NCBI GenBank assembly: GCA_025462945.1
Contig: JAOAPO010000417.1
Coordinates: forward strand, 1 to 35,458
DNA from: Bryobacterales bacterium
GTDB taxonomy: Bacteria; Acidobacteriota; Terriglobia; Bryobacterales; Bryobacteraceae
Direction of reading: 5' to 3'
DNA length: 35,458 bases
Position 1 is the stretch's first letter. Every line of letters starts with the position of its first letter. The notes below the pieces were generated by a model. That model saw only the letters and a list, made by a program, of their open reading frames with translations, was not told where the DNA came from and searched no databases. Below are positions 4,224 through 15,453 of the stretch, one piece after another. The position numbers and the translations under genes are program-made.

Positions 4224-6059
4224 ATGAAACGCTTAGCATTAGCTCTTTTCGTTCCCGCTCTGTTGGCCCAGAACTCCCCGCCGGACCAACTCCGTTCGGC
4301 CGCCACGAAATCTCTCACATTACTGCAAAAAGCCTCTGCAGGATTTTCAAAGGTTCAGGATTGCTACTCCTGTCACAACACCGGCCTGCCCGCAGAGGCC
4401 TTCGCCATGGCGCGGGAACGAGGCTTCACCATTGATGAGCCGGCAGCAAAGGCAGCTCTCGTCAAGAGCCTGACCCACACGCCTAATCTCAGCTCCATCG
4501 ATCACATCGTCCAGGCAACCTCAATCATCGATCCAGCAGCGTCAGAAGCTTCCGCTCTCATCGCCGCTCATTCCGCTGGCCTGAAGCCCAGCCTGACCAC
4601 GGCCATTCAGGCCCGCTACATAGCAAGCGCCCAACGGGCCGACGGTCACTGGCTGACCTTCGATGCGCGTCCGCCTCAGGGTCACAGCGAGTTCACGACC
4701 ACAGCTCTCACTATCCGGATGCTGCAGATGTACATGCCGGAGGAACTGCGCCAGGAGACAGCGGCCCGAACCGAACGTGCACGGGCCTGGCTGGCAAAAG
4801 CGACTCCTGCCACCACCGAAGACGCCACCTTCCGCCTGCGAGGCCTCGTCTGGGCGAAAGCAAGTGAAGCCGAACGTGCGCCTGCAGTTAGTGATTTGCG
4901 TAAGCTTCAGCGAGCCAATGGAGGATGGGCCCAAATCCCCAGCATGGACCCCGACGCTTACGCCACCGGTGAAGTGCTTTTAGCACTGTACGACAGCGGA
5001 GTTCCCGTCACTGACCCCGCGTGGCGCAAAGGACTTCAGTTCCTGCTTTCTTCACAGAACGCCGATGGCTCCTGGCACGTTGCAACGCGCATGGTCTCGC
5101 CCGCACAGGTCAGCCCACCGTATTTCGAATCCGGTTTTCCGTTCGGCCACGATCAGTTCATCTCGTCCGCGGGCACCTCGTACGCGACGATGGCTATCTT
5201 AGCTGCGGTGCCGAAAGCAGCGAAAGCCAGCGCGCCCCTCGCCATGCCGGAACTGGCGCCGAAAGGCGAGAAGCCGTGGATGAGAACCGCTCTCTTCGGC
5301 ACCGTTGCAGAACTAAAGACGCTTCTCGATAAGGGCCTGGACGTGAACAGCCATTCCGATGAGGGCACCACGCTCCTCATGTTCGTCGCTCCCGATACGG
5401 CCCGCATGAAGCTCCTGATGGATCGTGGCGCCAACGTGAAGGCCACGGCCAAAACCGGCTTCGACGCACTCCTGGTTACTTCCCTCTACCGAGGCTCCGG
5501 CGACGCGCTGCGAATGCTGCTCGCCAAAGGTGCCAGTCCCGCGCCCCGTACCGGAGTGCTGTTCAATGCCTCGCCGATCGTGCTCTCGGTCTATGCCGGA
5601 GACGCCGCCAATATCGCACTACTCCACTCCAAAGGCGCAGACGTGAATCGCAAGATGATGCTGCTCGGTATCTTCCCGACTTCCCCGCTCTTCGCCGCCG
5701 CTGCCTTCGGCGAAGTCGACGTGATGCGGGCGCTGATCACCGCCGGTGCCGACCTGAAAGAGCAGGACCCGACCGGCCTCAGCCTGCTGCACCAGGCCGC
5801 ACTTGCCAACCATGTGGACGCGGCACAACTCCTGATCGCGTCCGGAGCGCCGGTCGACACCGTCGACAAGAACGGGTACTCTGCACTCCTCTACGCCTCC
5901 ACCATCAACTTCGGTGACGACCGCATGGTCAAACTGCTGCTGAAGGCGGGCGCGAATGCCGCCGTCAAAGCCAAAACGGGCGAGACCGCGCTTTCACAGG
6001 CGAAGCGTTACCACCACACGAACCTGGTTGCAGCTCTCGCCCAGGTCAGCTCAAAATAG
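4224..6059 (+). CDS. Multidomain protein: c-type heme motif, squalene-cyclase-like alpha/alpha toroid, C-terminal ankyrin repeats
   Basis: CYSCH heme motif at 4362-4376; QW-like repeats (DGHW, NGGWAQ, QNADGSWH); several ankyrin repeats (ALFGTVAELKTLLDKGLDVN, AAAFGEVDVMRALITAGADL, AALANHVDAAQLLIASGAPV). Confidence 0.8.
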   Translation: MKRLALALFVPALLAQNSPPDQLRSAATKSLTLLQKASAGFSKVQDCYSCHNTGLPAEAFAMARERGFTIDEPAAKAALVKSLTHTPNLSSIDHIVQATSIIDPAASEASALIAAHSAGLKPSLTTAIQARYIASAQRADGHWLTFDARPPQGHSEFTTTALTIRMLQMYMPEELRQETAARTERARAWLAKATPATTEDATFRLRGLVWAKASEAERAPAVSDLRKLQRANGGWAQIPSMDPDAYATGEVLLALYDSGVPVTDPAWRKGLQFLLSSQNADGSWHVATRMVSPAQVSPPYFESGFPFGHDQFISSAGTSYATMAILAAVPKAAKASAPLAMPELAPKGEKPWMRTALFGTVAELKTLLDKGLDVNSHSDEGTTLLMFVAPDTARMKLLMDRGANVKATAKTGFDALLVTSLYRGSGDALRMLLAKGASPAPRTGVLFNASPIVLSVYAGDAANIALLHSKGADVNRKMMLLGIFPTSPLFAAAAFGEVDVMRALITAGADLKEQDPTGLSLLHQAALANHVDAAQLLIASGAPVDTVDKNGYSALLYASTINFGDDRMVKLLLKAGANAAVKAKTGETALSQAKRYHHTNLVAALAQVSSK

Positions 6060-12357: not shown

Positions 12358-12705
12358 ATGTTCAGGCGCGCCGCACAGCTTCTCGCAATGCTCGCAATGC
12401 TGACCGGCATCGTGTCAGCGCAGTGCAACTTCGCCTGCAGCCTCGAAGCGCTCAAAGCCGCCTCTCACCCCTGCTGCCCCGCGGGCGACAGCCACACTCC
12501 GTCTCCCCAGCCCTGTCCGGAAGCCGCTGTACTTCCAGGCATCAATCCGGCCACCATCGACCTCGGAACCGCGTCCACCGTATCACTCGTTCCGGTAAGT
12601 ACCAGCTTTGAATCACCGCTCGTCTTCACGGCACGTCTGCACGCGAACTTCGCTGAATCCAAAGCTCCGCGCTACCTCTCCTCCTTCGCAATTCTGCGAA
12701 TCTAG
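12358..12705 (+). CDS. Small secreted Cys-containing protein of unknown function
   Basis: Signal peptide MFRRAAQLLAMLAMLTGIVSAQ then CNFACSLEAL...SHPCCPAGD...PCPEA; 31 bp after arsR and upstream of the multicopper oxidase. Confidence 0.65.
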   Translation: MFRRAAQLLAMLAMLTGIVSAQCNFACSLEALKAASHPCCPAGDSHTPSPQPCPEAAVLPGINPATIDLGTASTVSLVPVSTSFESPLVFTARLHANFAESKAPRYLSSFAILRI

Positions 12706-12785: not shown

Positions 12786-13946
12786 ATGAGCAATCGACGC
12801 TCGTTCTTCACCAAAGCCTCCGCCCTGACCGCGAGCCTTTTCACCGGCAAAGCCGCACTGAGCGCACAAACCAACCCCGCGCCCGTGCCCGTCACCACCC
12901 TCGATGTAGCCGACCTCCCCTTCACCATGGACAGCGGCACCAAAGTCTTCAACCTCATCGCCGAACCCGTGAAGCAGACCGTCATCCCCGGCCGCACACT
13001 CGACCTTTGGGGCTTCAACGGCAGCGCCCCTGGCCCCACCATTCAGGCCAACGAAGGCGACCGCGTCCGCATCATCTTCGACAACCACCTGCCCGAGGCC
13101 ACCGGCATCCACTGGCACGGTCTCGAACTCCCGATCGCAATGGATGGCGTTCCCGGCGTCGGCCAGGACCTCGTCCAGCCTGGTGGCCGCTTCGTCTACG
13201 AATTCACCCTCCACCAGAACGGAACCTTCTTCTACCACCCCCACATGGCCATGCAGGAGATGGTCGGCCTCCTCGGCGGCTTCATCATCCACCCCAAAAC
13301 CGCGTACACACCGCTCGTCGACAAAGACTTTCTCATTGCACTGCAGGAGTACGCCGTCCTGCCGAACACGACCATCCCCAACAGCATGGCCATGGAGTTC
13401 AACTGGCTCACGTTCAACGGCAAAGCCGGCCCGTCCACCACGCCTCTGGTGGTGCAGCAGGGCGAGCGCATTCGCGTCCGCTTCATCAACATGGGCATGG
13501 ACCATCACCCGATCCACCTCCATGGCTTCACCTTTTGGGAAACCGGCCGCGAAGGCGCGCGCCAGCAGGAGACCGCGTGGACCCGCGGCAACACCACGCT
13601 CGTCGGCGTCGCGCAGGCCCGCGACATCGAATTCATCGCTGACCGCATCGGCGACTGGATGCTCCACTGCCACCTGCCGCACCACATGATGAACCAGATG
13701 GTGCCCTCGGTCGGCCCCATGACACGAACGAACCCCAGCAAGGTCCCGCTCTATCCGCAGGACGCGTTTATGGAAGGTCCCATGATGGCCATGGATCACG
13801 AGGTCGACAAGCCCGAAACGCATGGTCTGCCCGCTGGCTGGAGCGGCTTCTCCGGCGGCATGATGACCCTGCTCCGAGTAATGCCGCCCGAGAAATACAA
13901 CGAGATCGCAGCCTTGATCGCGGCAAAGAAAGCGGGCGCACGATGA
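12786..13946 (+). CDS. Two-domain multicopper oxidase
   Basis: HWHGLELP, YHPHMAM, HPIHLHG, HCHLPHHMMNQM copper-ligand motifs; NRRSFFTKA Tat-like leader; AAGGA upstream. Confidence 0.92.
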   Translation: MSNRRSFFTKASALTASLFTGKAALSAQTNPAPVPVTTLDVADLPFTMDSGTKVFNLIAEPVKQTVIPGRTLDLWGFNGSAPGPTIQANEGDRVRIIFDNHLPEATGIHWHGLELPIAMDGVPGVGQDLVQPGGRFVYEFTLHQNGTFFYHPHMAMQEMVGLLGGFIIHPKTAYTPLVDKDFLIALQEYAVLPNTTIPNSMAMEFNWLTFNGKAGPSTTPLVVQQGERIRVRFINMGMDHHPIHLHGFTFWETGREGARQQETAWTRGNTTLVGVAQARDIEFIADRIGDWMLHCHLPHHMMNQMVPSVGPMTRTNPSKVPLYPQDAFMEGPMMAMDHEVDKPETHGLPAGWSGFSGGMMTLLRVMPPEKYNEIAALIAAKKAGAR

Positions 13947-15409
13947 AGCTGGCACTCTGCCTCCTGCTCAGCGTTTTTGCCGCCTTCGCCCAGCAACAAC
14001 TGAAAGGCATCGTGGAGAGCGTCAACACCTCCACCAGAAAGGTCGCGGTCGCCAACGAACCTATCCCGGGAGGCATGGCCGCCATGACCATGAGTTACTC
14101 GGTTGATAAGCCGGACATCCTCACCAAACTGACGCCGGGCGATCGCATCATCGCCAAATTCGACGACGCAACGCTGACGTTGTCTGACATTCAGATCGTC
14201 ACACCGCCCCCTTCCGCCCCGAAAGCCACAACAACGCTCAATTTGGAAGAACTCGAACGACTCGCGCTCACGGGGAATCCGAACGCCGCGATCGCTGAGG
14301 CCAACGTGCGCGTGGCCGCCGGCAACTTGCGCCAGTCGGGCCTTTATCCGAACCCTACCGCCGGCTACTACGGCGACGAAATCCGGGGCGGGCGATACCG
14401 TGGCGGTAAACAGGGTGGCTTCATCGCCCAAACCATCGTCACCGGCGGGAAACTCGGTGCCGCACGACGCGTGGCCGAACTCCTCCGCGACCAGCAGCAG
14501 ACCACCGCCGAGATCCAGAAACTGCGCATCCGGATGAGTGTCCGGATCCTCTTCTACCAGGTGCTCGCCGCCCAGCGACTCGTCGACGTCCGCCAAAACC
14601 TCGCATCCATCGCCGCCGACGCCACCCAAACCTCGCACCAGCTCGCCAACATCGGGCAGGCCGACCGTCCCGACGTGCTTCAGGCCGAAGTGGAGCAACA
14701 GCGCGCGGACGTGGGCGTCCGAACCGAGCAACAAAACCTTCTCGCCGCGTGGAAGTCCCTGGCAGCCGTTGTCGGCCAGCCGAATCTGCCCCTCACCCGT
14801 CTCGAAGGCGACCTGGAAGCCTTTCCAGACCTCACCTTCGACCAGTCGCTCGCCAAAACGCTCCAGGAAAGTCCCGAGGTGAAGCTCGCCCGACAAAGCA
14901 TCGAACGGACCGAAGCGTCTGTCATCCAGGAGCGGCGAAACCCTGTCCCGGACCTCGAAATTCAGGCGAATTTGACGAAGAACAACGAACCCATCGAAGG
15001 AACCTCCCGAGCCATCGGGCTCAACGGAGGTGTGCAGGTCGGAGTTCAGCTCCCGATCTTCAATCGAAACCAGGGAGCCATCGCCGCCGCCCGCGCTGGC
15101 GTCGAGACCTCGAAAGCCGAACTCACCCGCCTGCAATTCCAGATATCCAGGGACTTGGCCACCCTGTTCAGAGACTACCAAGCCTCAAGAATCACCGCCA
15201 GGCAATACAAAGACGAGATGCTGCCCAGAGCCCAGCAGGCTTACAAAATGTACCAGGCGACCTACCAGAAGATGCAGTCTGCCTGGCCGCAAACGCTGCT
15301 CTCGCAAAGGACCCTCTTCCAGCTGGAGGTCGACTACGTCGCAGCCCTGGAAGCAACCTGGACCGCTGCTCTCCAGATTCAAACCTACGCACTGACCCCT
15401 TTGCCATAA
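13943..15409 (+). CDS. CusF-like domain fused to TolC-family outer membrane efflux protein
   Basis: N-terminal LKGIVESVNTSTRKVAVANEPIPGGMAAMTMSYSVDKPDILTKLTPGDRIIAKFD (CusF-like), then NLEELERLALTGNPNAAIAEANVRVAAGNLRQSGLYPNPTAGY... (TolC/OEP). ATGA overlap with upstream gene. Confidence 0.88.
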   Translation: MKLALCLLLSVFAAFAQQQLKGIVESVNTSTRKVAVANEPIPGGMAAMTMSYSVDKPDILTKLTPGDRIIAKFDDATLTLSDIQIVTPPPSAPKATTTLNLEELERLALTGNPNAAIAEANVRVAAGNLRQSGLYPNPTAGYYGDEIRGGRYRGGKQGGFIAQTIVTGGKLGAARRVAELLRDQQQTTAEIQKLRIRMSVRILFYQVLAAQRLVDVRQNLASIAADATQTSHQLANIGQADRPDVLQAEVEQQRADVGVRTEQQNLLAAWKSLAAVVGQPNLPLTRLEGDLEAFPDLTFDQSLAKTLQESPEVKLARQSIERTEASVIQERRNPVPDLEIQANLTKNNEPIEGTSRAIGLNGGVQVGVQLPIFNRNQGAIAAARAGVETSKAELTRLQFQISRDLATLFRDYQASRITARQYKDEMLPRAQQAYKMYQATYQKMQSAWPQTLLSQRTLFQLEVDYVAALEATWTAALQIQTYALTPLP

Positions 15410-15423
15410 CCCCGAAACGCAAA

Positions 15424-15453
15424 AAAGGCCGGACTCCGAAGAGTTCGGCCTTT
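15424..15453. terminator. Bidirectional intrinsic terminator
   Basis: AAAGGCCGGACTC-CGAA-GAGTTCGGCCTTT, 13-bp stem with one G.T; minus-strand transcript has a UUCG loop closed by C-G and a U6 tract. Lies between convergent 3' ends at 15409 and 15480. Confidence 0.88.

Follow-up and report, generated by a model that had tools for sequence, protein, structure and literature searches.

A CusF domain fused to a TolC-type channel, and its multicopper oxidase partner, in the Bryobacteraceae

The gene at positions 13943–15409 (+) of the window, by which we mean the whole stretch of 35,458 nucleotides of a Bryobacterales bacterium analysed here, encodes a TolC-type channel that carries a CusF domain. 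The three methionines of the CusF metal site are conserved, the histidine ligand has been lost, and the partner gene is that of a multicopper oxidase (MCO), with no RND gene adjoining. Copper modules recur at the N-terminus of such channels, and CusF recurs at the C-terminus of the oxidases. On balance we lean towards the view, by analogy with PcoA–PcoB, that a periplasmic oxidase and the channel, as the outer-membrane half, form a two-protein copper-detoxification unit in which the CusF domain on the channel would pass Cu(I) to the oxidase. The features concerned are as follows.

12358–12705 (+): candidate copper-sensing leader, a small exported CxxxC protein that ends in AILRI-stop (sequence reading and C-terminus-blind scans)
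12786–13946 (+): multicopper oxidase, 386 residues (HWH, HPH, HPIHLH and HCH motifs)
13943–15409 (+): CusF-channel fusion protein, 488 residues, with signal peptide, CusF domain and TolC/OEP channel (ORF, Pfam)
13994–14170 (+): CusF domain, PF11604 (Pfam match, fold search)
14054–14056 (+): N38 codon, at the position of CusF ligand His36 (sequence, alignment to a CusF-like PDB chain)
14075–14092 (+): M45 to M50 codons, proposed three-Met Cu(I) site of M45, M48 and M50 (invariant in 18 aligned fused domains)
14231–15385 (+): TolC/OEP channel part, limits approximate (Pfam)
15436–15448 (+): terminator-like hairpin 3' of the channel gene (weak; one found against 0.5 expected)

The original prediction, made by reading the sequence, was of a CusF domain joined to a full TolC-type channel, and it proposed profile searches and N-terminal structure prediction as checks; both bear it out. 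Behind the signal peptide (MKLALCLLLSVFAAFA), residues 18–76 match CusF_Ec (PF11604) with 44.8 bits (cut-off 27, E=1.1e-11), and OEP (PF02321) matches with 115.8 bits (cut-off 22, E=2.6e-33) in two stretches, giving two OEP repeats across the mature protein. Residues 17–92, modelled with AF2 from the single sequence, form a small beta barrel of the OB type (pLDDT 78). The closest PDB folds found by Foldseek include SilF as the best, CusF at ranks 4 and 9, and the SilB C-terminal domain 2l55; the SilF and CusF matches have a probability of 1.00 and TM scores of 0.55–0.63, with Foldseek E-values of only 2e-3 to 2e-2. The full-length single-sequence AF2 model, with a pLDDT of 41.6, is too poor to be of use. 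Since the same fusion occurs in 17 other genomes with an invariant Met triad in the aligned domains, it is not a chance event, and we rejected an assembly artefact on the ground of its recurrence in 18 genomes.

In a weak sequence match with a CusF-like PDB chain, GMAAMTM of the fused domain is paired with GWPAMTM, and the N of VANEPI stands opposite the H of ISHEAI. On this alignment the ligand set is N38/M45/M48/M50 as against H36/W44/M47/M49, in agreement with the N/M/M/M read by eye beforehand. The Met pair, which had been described as kept, corresponds to M48 and M50, neither of which varies among the aligned fused domains. The further claim of altered ligands stands for the histidine, which is replaced in 18/19 fused loci, but the change from Trp to Met is the ordinary state. 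All 17 readable CusF motifs of the phylum, including four other domains of the same genome, have Met at the Trp44 position, as do CusF proteins of Janthinobacterium and Phaeobacter plasmids, which keep the His. Met for Trp is therefore the general form, and we rejected loss of the Trp as a special adaptation.

At the His36 position, 16 of the same 17 motifs have His, whereas the 19 channel-fused loci have 14 Asn, four Gly and one His; oxidase-fused CusF domains keep the ligand in 3/3 cases. Loss of the His is thus a real departure of the channel-fused CusF, in which the fold family stands and the canonical metal site is changed. M45, M48 and M50 are invariant in 18/18 aligned channel-side domains. 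Where computable, dN/dS of the fused CusF is 0.03–0.32, rough values with dS often saturated, which indicate purifying selection; with the invariant triad, they suggest that the three-Met site is maintained. Judged by ligand chemistry, Cu(I) and not Cu(II) would be the ion bound at such a Met-only site.

This channel type is present in 67 of 237 genomes of the family, and CusF is fused to it in 18 of the 237 (19 loci). In 396 genomes across the phylum, those close relatives of the channel that lie outside the family begin after query residue ~85 and have no CusF. PF11604 matches over 297 phylum genomes place CusF mostly within frames of ~300 residues, and one such frame of the same genome, translated completely, looks by eye like a Sco-type protein. 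Beyond the phylum, spread was judged from plasmid records, none of which covered at least 80% of the fusion. When 65 channels are placed in a tree from which the CusF part was left out, the presence of CusF requires four changes as counted by a quick method; there is one large clade, with 16 fused rows and two members lacking CusF (L206 and L207), and a separate pair, G548 and G640. CusF probably joined the channel twice, with some losses afterwards. The idea that the fusion is unusual holds in that, within the library of full-text papers covered by our search, there was no CusF–TolC or other CusF–channel fusion; it does not hold in that the fusion recurs within a single bacterial family, where it also takes tandem, double-sided and alternative forms.

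The tandem version is that of G403, with three near-identical CusF repeats on the channel. This channel (L050:2524-4968 (-)) is without its last ~48 residues, and its frame stays open into that of a membrane cytochrome c, through either a deletion or an assembly join; in G411 this cytochrome c has a gene of its own further downstream, and in G398 it is found as a downstream ORF. G411 also encodes a small DUF5666 protein 3' of the channel and cytochrome c (L049:10659-11000 (+)), with a counterpart in G403.

The oxidase encoded at 12786–13946 has all four copper motifs, and its closest PDB matches are laccases and two-domain oxidases. Its stop codon and the channel start overlap by four bases (ATGA), and the two genes are probably translationally coupled. 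An MCO gene is adjacent in 36/36 close channel relatives of our first survey, and no RND gene lies beside these 36 loci, bar remote or edge cases at L062 and L081. Among more distant channel loci, 22 of the 23 checked adjoin an RND gene, and the MCO-linked channels group in a single clade (100/100) that excludes 25 RND-linked channels. The window proteins scanned include no RND pump or adaptor, with which a CusC-type channel is encoded. Of the original notion of a chaperone tethered to an export channel, the tethering is retained while the Cus-like context is not, as the partner is an overlapping MCO gene without an RND gene alongside.

On Janthinobacterium and Phaeobacter plasmids, TolC, copper oxidase and CusF are each encoded by a gene of their own, side by side, and the channels are at best distant relatives of the fusion channel; in Criblamydia a TolC gene adjoins a copper oxidase gene. 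No CopB barrel (PF05275) was found in the genome carrying the window. Many of the oxidases (e.g. L064, L052 and L079) have near their C-terminus a conserved Met-rich tail, GLRPGWTGxMMGMMTLVRVL, a candidate docking or copper-relay segment.

CusF also occurs on the other side of the gene junction. The MCO bears CusF at its C-terminus in G289, G548 and G640 (L064:8715-10535 (-), L204 and L205); G548 and G640 have CusF on both MCO and channel, and G289 on the MCO only. Channel-side and oxidase-side CusF domains group together with a free CusF from the genome that carries the window (90/96, for a short domain with weak inner support), so that a single CusF lineage seems to have changed places around the oxidase–channel junction. 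We regard these fusions on both sides as natural evidence for oxidase, CusF and channel acting together. Other MCO-linked channels have Met/His-rich tails at the N-terminus, and other modules are found as well: cytochrome c with a heavy-metal-binding domain (HMBD) in L073:7256-9340 (+), cytochrome c with His/Met repeats in L066:7243-9465 (-), and an HMBD-like CPMH...CPKCGM motif in L190 (G473). L061, L067 and L053 are MCO-linked channels without an obvious N-terminal copper module, which is thus not needed everywhere.

In function, the nearest parallel to the arrangement is pcoA–pcoB of Caulobacter, where the oxidase and outer membrane channel genes overlap by four bases, and where the His/Met-rich N-terminus of PcoB is needed for copper efflux, stabilises PcoA, and has a proposed docking role (PMC12509749). 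As with PcoA–PcoB and CopA–CopB, an MCO gene is followed by an outer membrane channel gene with a four-base overlap and putative copper-binding residues at the N-terminus of its product, and there is no RND gene. The channel, however, is of the TolC/OEP family (PF02321), whereas theirs is the CopB barrel (PF05275), and a folded CusF domain stands where PcoB has a disordered His/Met tail; adjacent, coupled genes make the layout alike without making the locus a member of that family. With the CusC and CzcC channels of HME-RND pumps (CusCFBA) the protein shares its channel superfamily and chaperone family, although it belongs to the separate MCO-linked clade with no adjoining RND gene, and its chaperone, which is without His36, is part of the channel's own polypeptide. 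Tethering of CusF to a copper export component is known from CusB–CusF (SilB-type) fusions of 22 gammaproteobacteria (PMC3548706), in which CusF is on the adaptor, unlike here, where it is on the outer membrane channel or the oxidase. The fusion protein is neither a CusC, having no RND partner, nor a PcoB, being of another channel family, though it is laid out like PcoAB.

In the paired reading of oxidase and channel that we prefer, CusF would be tethered at the channel N-terminus on the periplasmic side, would hold Cu(I) by M45, M48 and M50 with no histidine, and would dock or serve the MCO beside the channel and pass Cu(I) over; the MCO would then oxidise Cu(I) to Cu(II), and Cu(II) would exit through the channel. 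Transfer to a docked oxidase is the most likely course because a Met-only CusF would favour Cu(I) over Cu(II). Cu(I) binding, docking, the direction of transfer and export without an RND pump are inferred steps of this scheme. The pairing is favoured by the constant MCO neighbour of the close channels and their well-separated clade, by the ATGA overlap, as in pcoA–pcoB (PMC12509749), and by the requirement for the PcoB N-terminus in efflux and in stabilising PcoA (PMC12509749). It is also favoured by the variety of N-terminal modules (one or three CusF domains, Met/His-rich tails, HMBD, and cytochrome c with HMBD), by the presence of CusF on the MCO instead of the channel in G289, with G548 and G640 having it on both, by the adjacent TolC, MCO and CusF genes of the Janthinobacterium and Phaeobacter plasmids together with the absence of CopB from the genome, and by a CusF dN/dS below 1 where computable.

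TolC-type channels normally depend on an adaptor together with a pump of the RND, ABC or MFS type, and it counts against the pairing that neither an adaptor nor any such pump is encoded alongside this channel. The genome does contain several HME-RND sequences over the cut-off, whose pumps could use the channel in trans. An alternative, which we consider unlikely though the strongest of those weighed, is that the channel serves a CusA/CzcA-type RND pump whose gene lies elsewhere, with CusF feeding Cu(I) to the adaptor or pump in the manner of free CusF and of CusB–CusF fusions, and the MCO merely co-regulated. On plasmids, the closest relatives of the channel are CzcC/CusC-like channels of RND pumps, and the CusB–CusF fusions (PMC3548706) put CusF on a component of such a pump. 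However, those RND genes of this genome that lie on contigs C153, C189, C543 and C334 adjoin their own channel genes, the MCO-linked channels are a separate clade whose 36 close loci lack an adjoining RND gene (bar the remote or edge cases L062 and L081), and in relatives CusF moves to the MCO.

Two further readings concern the CusF domain itself. It could be mainly a docking or stabilising handle for the oxidase, with a metal site that senses or buffers copper and transfers none. Loss of the His ligand in 18/19 fused loci would fit this, as would the occurrence of CusF on either partner and the ability of the PcoB N-terminus to stabilise PcoA while tolerating large sequence change (PMC12509749); yet a mere handle would hardly need three invariant methionines in the aligned fused domains, and the other modules at the channel N-terminus are also copper or heme binders, so we regard it as improbable. 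It is more improbable still that the fused CusF is a passenger of the gene fusion and is being lost. The missing His and the two members without CusF inside the fused clade (L206 and L207) point that way, whereas the low, if rough, dN/dS values (0.03–0.32 where computable), the invariant Met triad, the two inferred gains on the channel and the tandem triplication in G403 all argue against it.

Upstream of the oxidase is the small ORF at 12358–12705, which ends 80 nt before the MCO gene. Its product is short, has a signal-peptide-like N-terminus followed by CNFAC, and is apparently exported; the C-terminal end reads APRYLSSFAILRI, with no PP motif in the last 15 residues. It has no match to any family, and we rejected it as a CopL or DUF2946 protein on that ground. 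We also rejected a stem-loop of the cutF–cutO kind between leader and oxidase (z = 0.1 in the window). Leader ORFs were selected blind to the C-terminus over 54 loci, and 45 of these, the window and 44 others, have one upstream of the oxidase or channel (e.g. L047, L049, L056, L072 and L210). All 45 leaders end in R-I/V/L/C-stop, mostly LRI or LRV, against a background of 3.4% of ORFs in the same loci, and all six Arg codons are in use for this Arg.

CutF and CruR, encoded ahead of copper genes, sense copper as nascent peptides (PMC9973294, PMC9426467), and the leader resembles the CutF–CutO and CruR systems as a small exported Cys-motif protein directly upstream of an MCO. It differs from CutF in ending with LR(I/V)-stop where CutF has a proline motif, and the published list of CutF-like proteins demanded PP within the last 15 residues (PMC9973294). 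Judging by its sequence and position, the CxxxC leader may represent a new class of nascent leader peptides that sense copper and are related to CutF and CruR. On a plasmid of Phaeobacter inhibens, a small Cys-containing ORF before TolC, copper oxidase and CusF genes (L216:1691-2083 (+)) ends LLRPPKA, and it may link the PP-type CutF leaders to those ending in LR(I/V)-stop.

Taking oxidase, channel and leader together, we put forward only tentatively, as an outcome we would not bet on, an RND-independent copper export unit of MCO and TolC-type channel. Its plug-in copper domains (CusF, HMBD, cytochrome c and Met/His tails), placed where oxidase and channel adjoin, would relay copper between the two proteins, and expression would be set by a copper-sensing nascent peptide of a new class, arresting at LR(I/V)-stop where known ones have a proline motif. 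Copper movement through PcoB/CopB-type outer-membrane partners of copper oxidases, which have no energy source, is under debate even as to direction; for PcoB itself one study finds efflux (PMC12509749) and another copper influx (PMC9210255), which also counts against pairing oxidase and channel as an export unit. The locus described here follows the same gene logic with another kind of channel, and its copper domain is folded and belongs to a well-studied family. As the folded CusF has a defined three-Met site, point mutants can probe how the oxidase docks at the channel and how copper passes between them.

Elsewhere in the window there is a DUF3738 match, which together with other content would fit an Acidobacteriota MAG close to Solibacter or Bryobacter, and the frame at 4224-6059 (+) has a squalene-hopene-cyclase-like match followed by ankyrin repeats.
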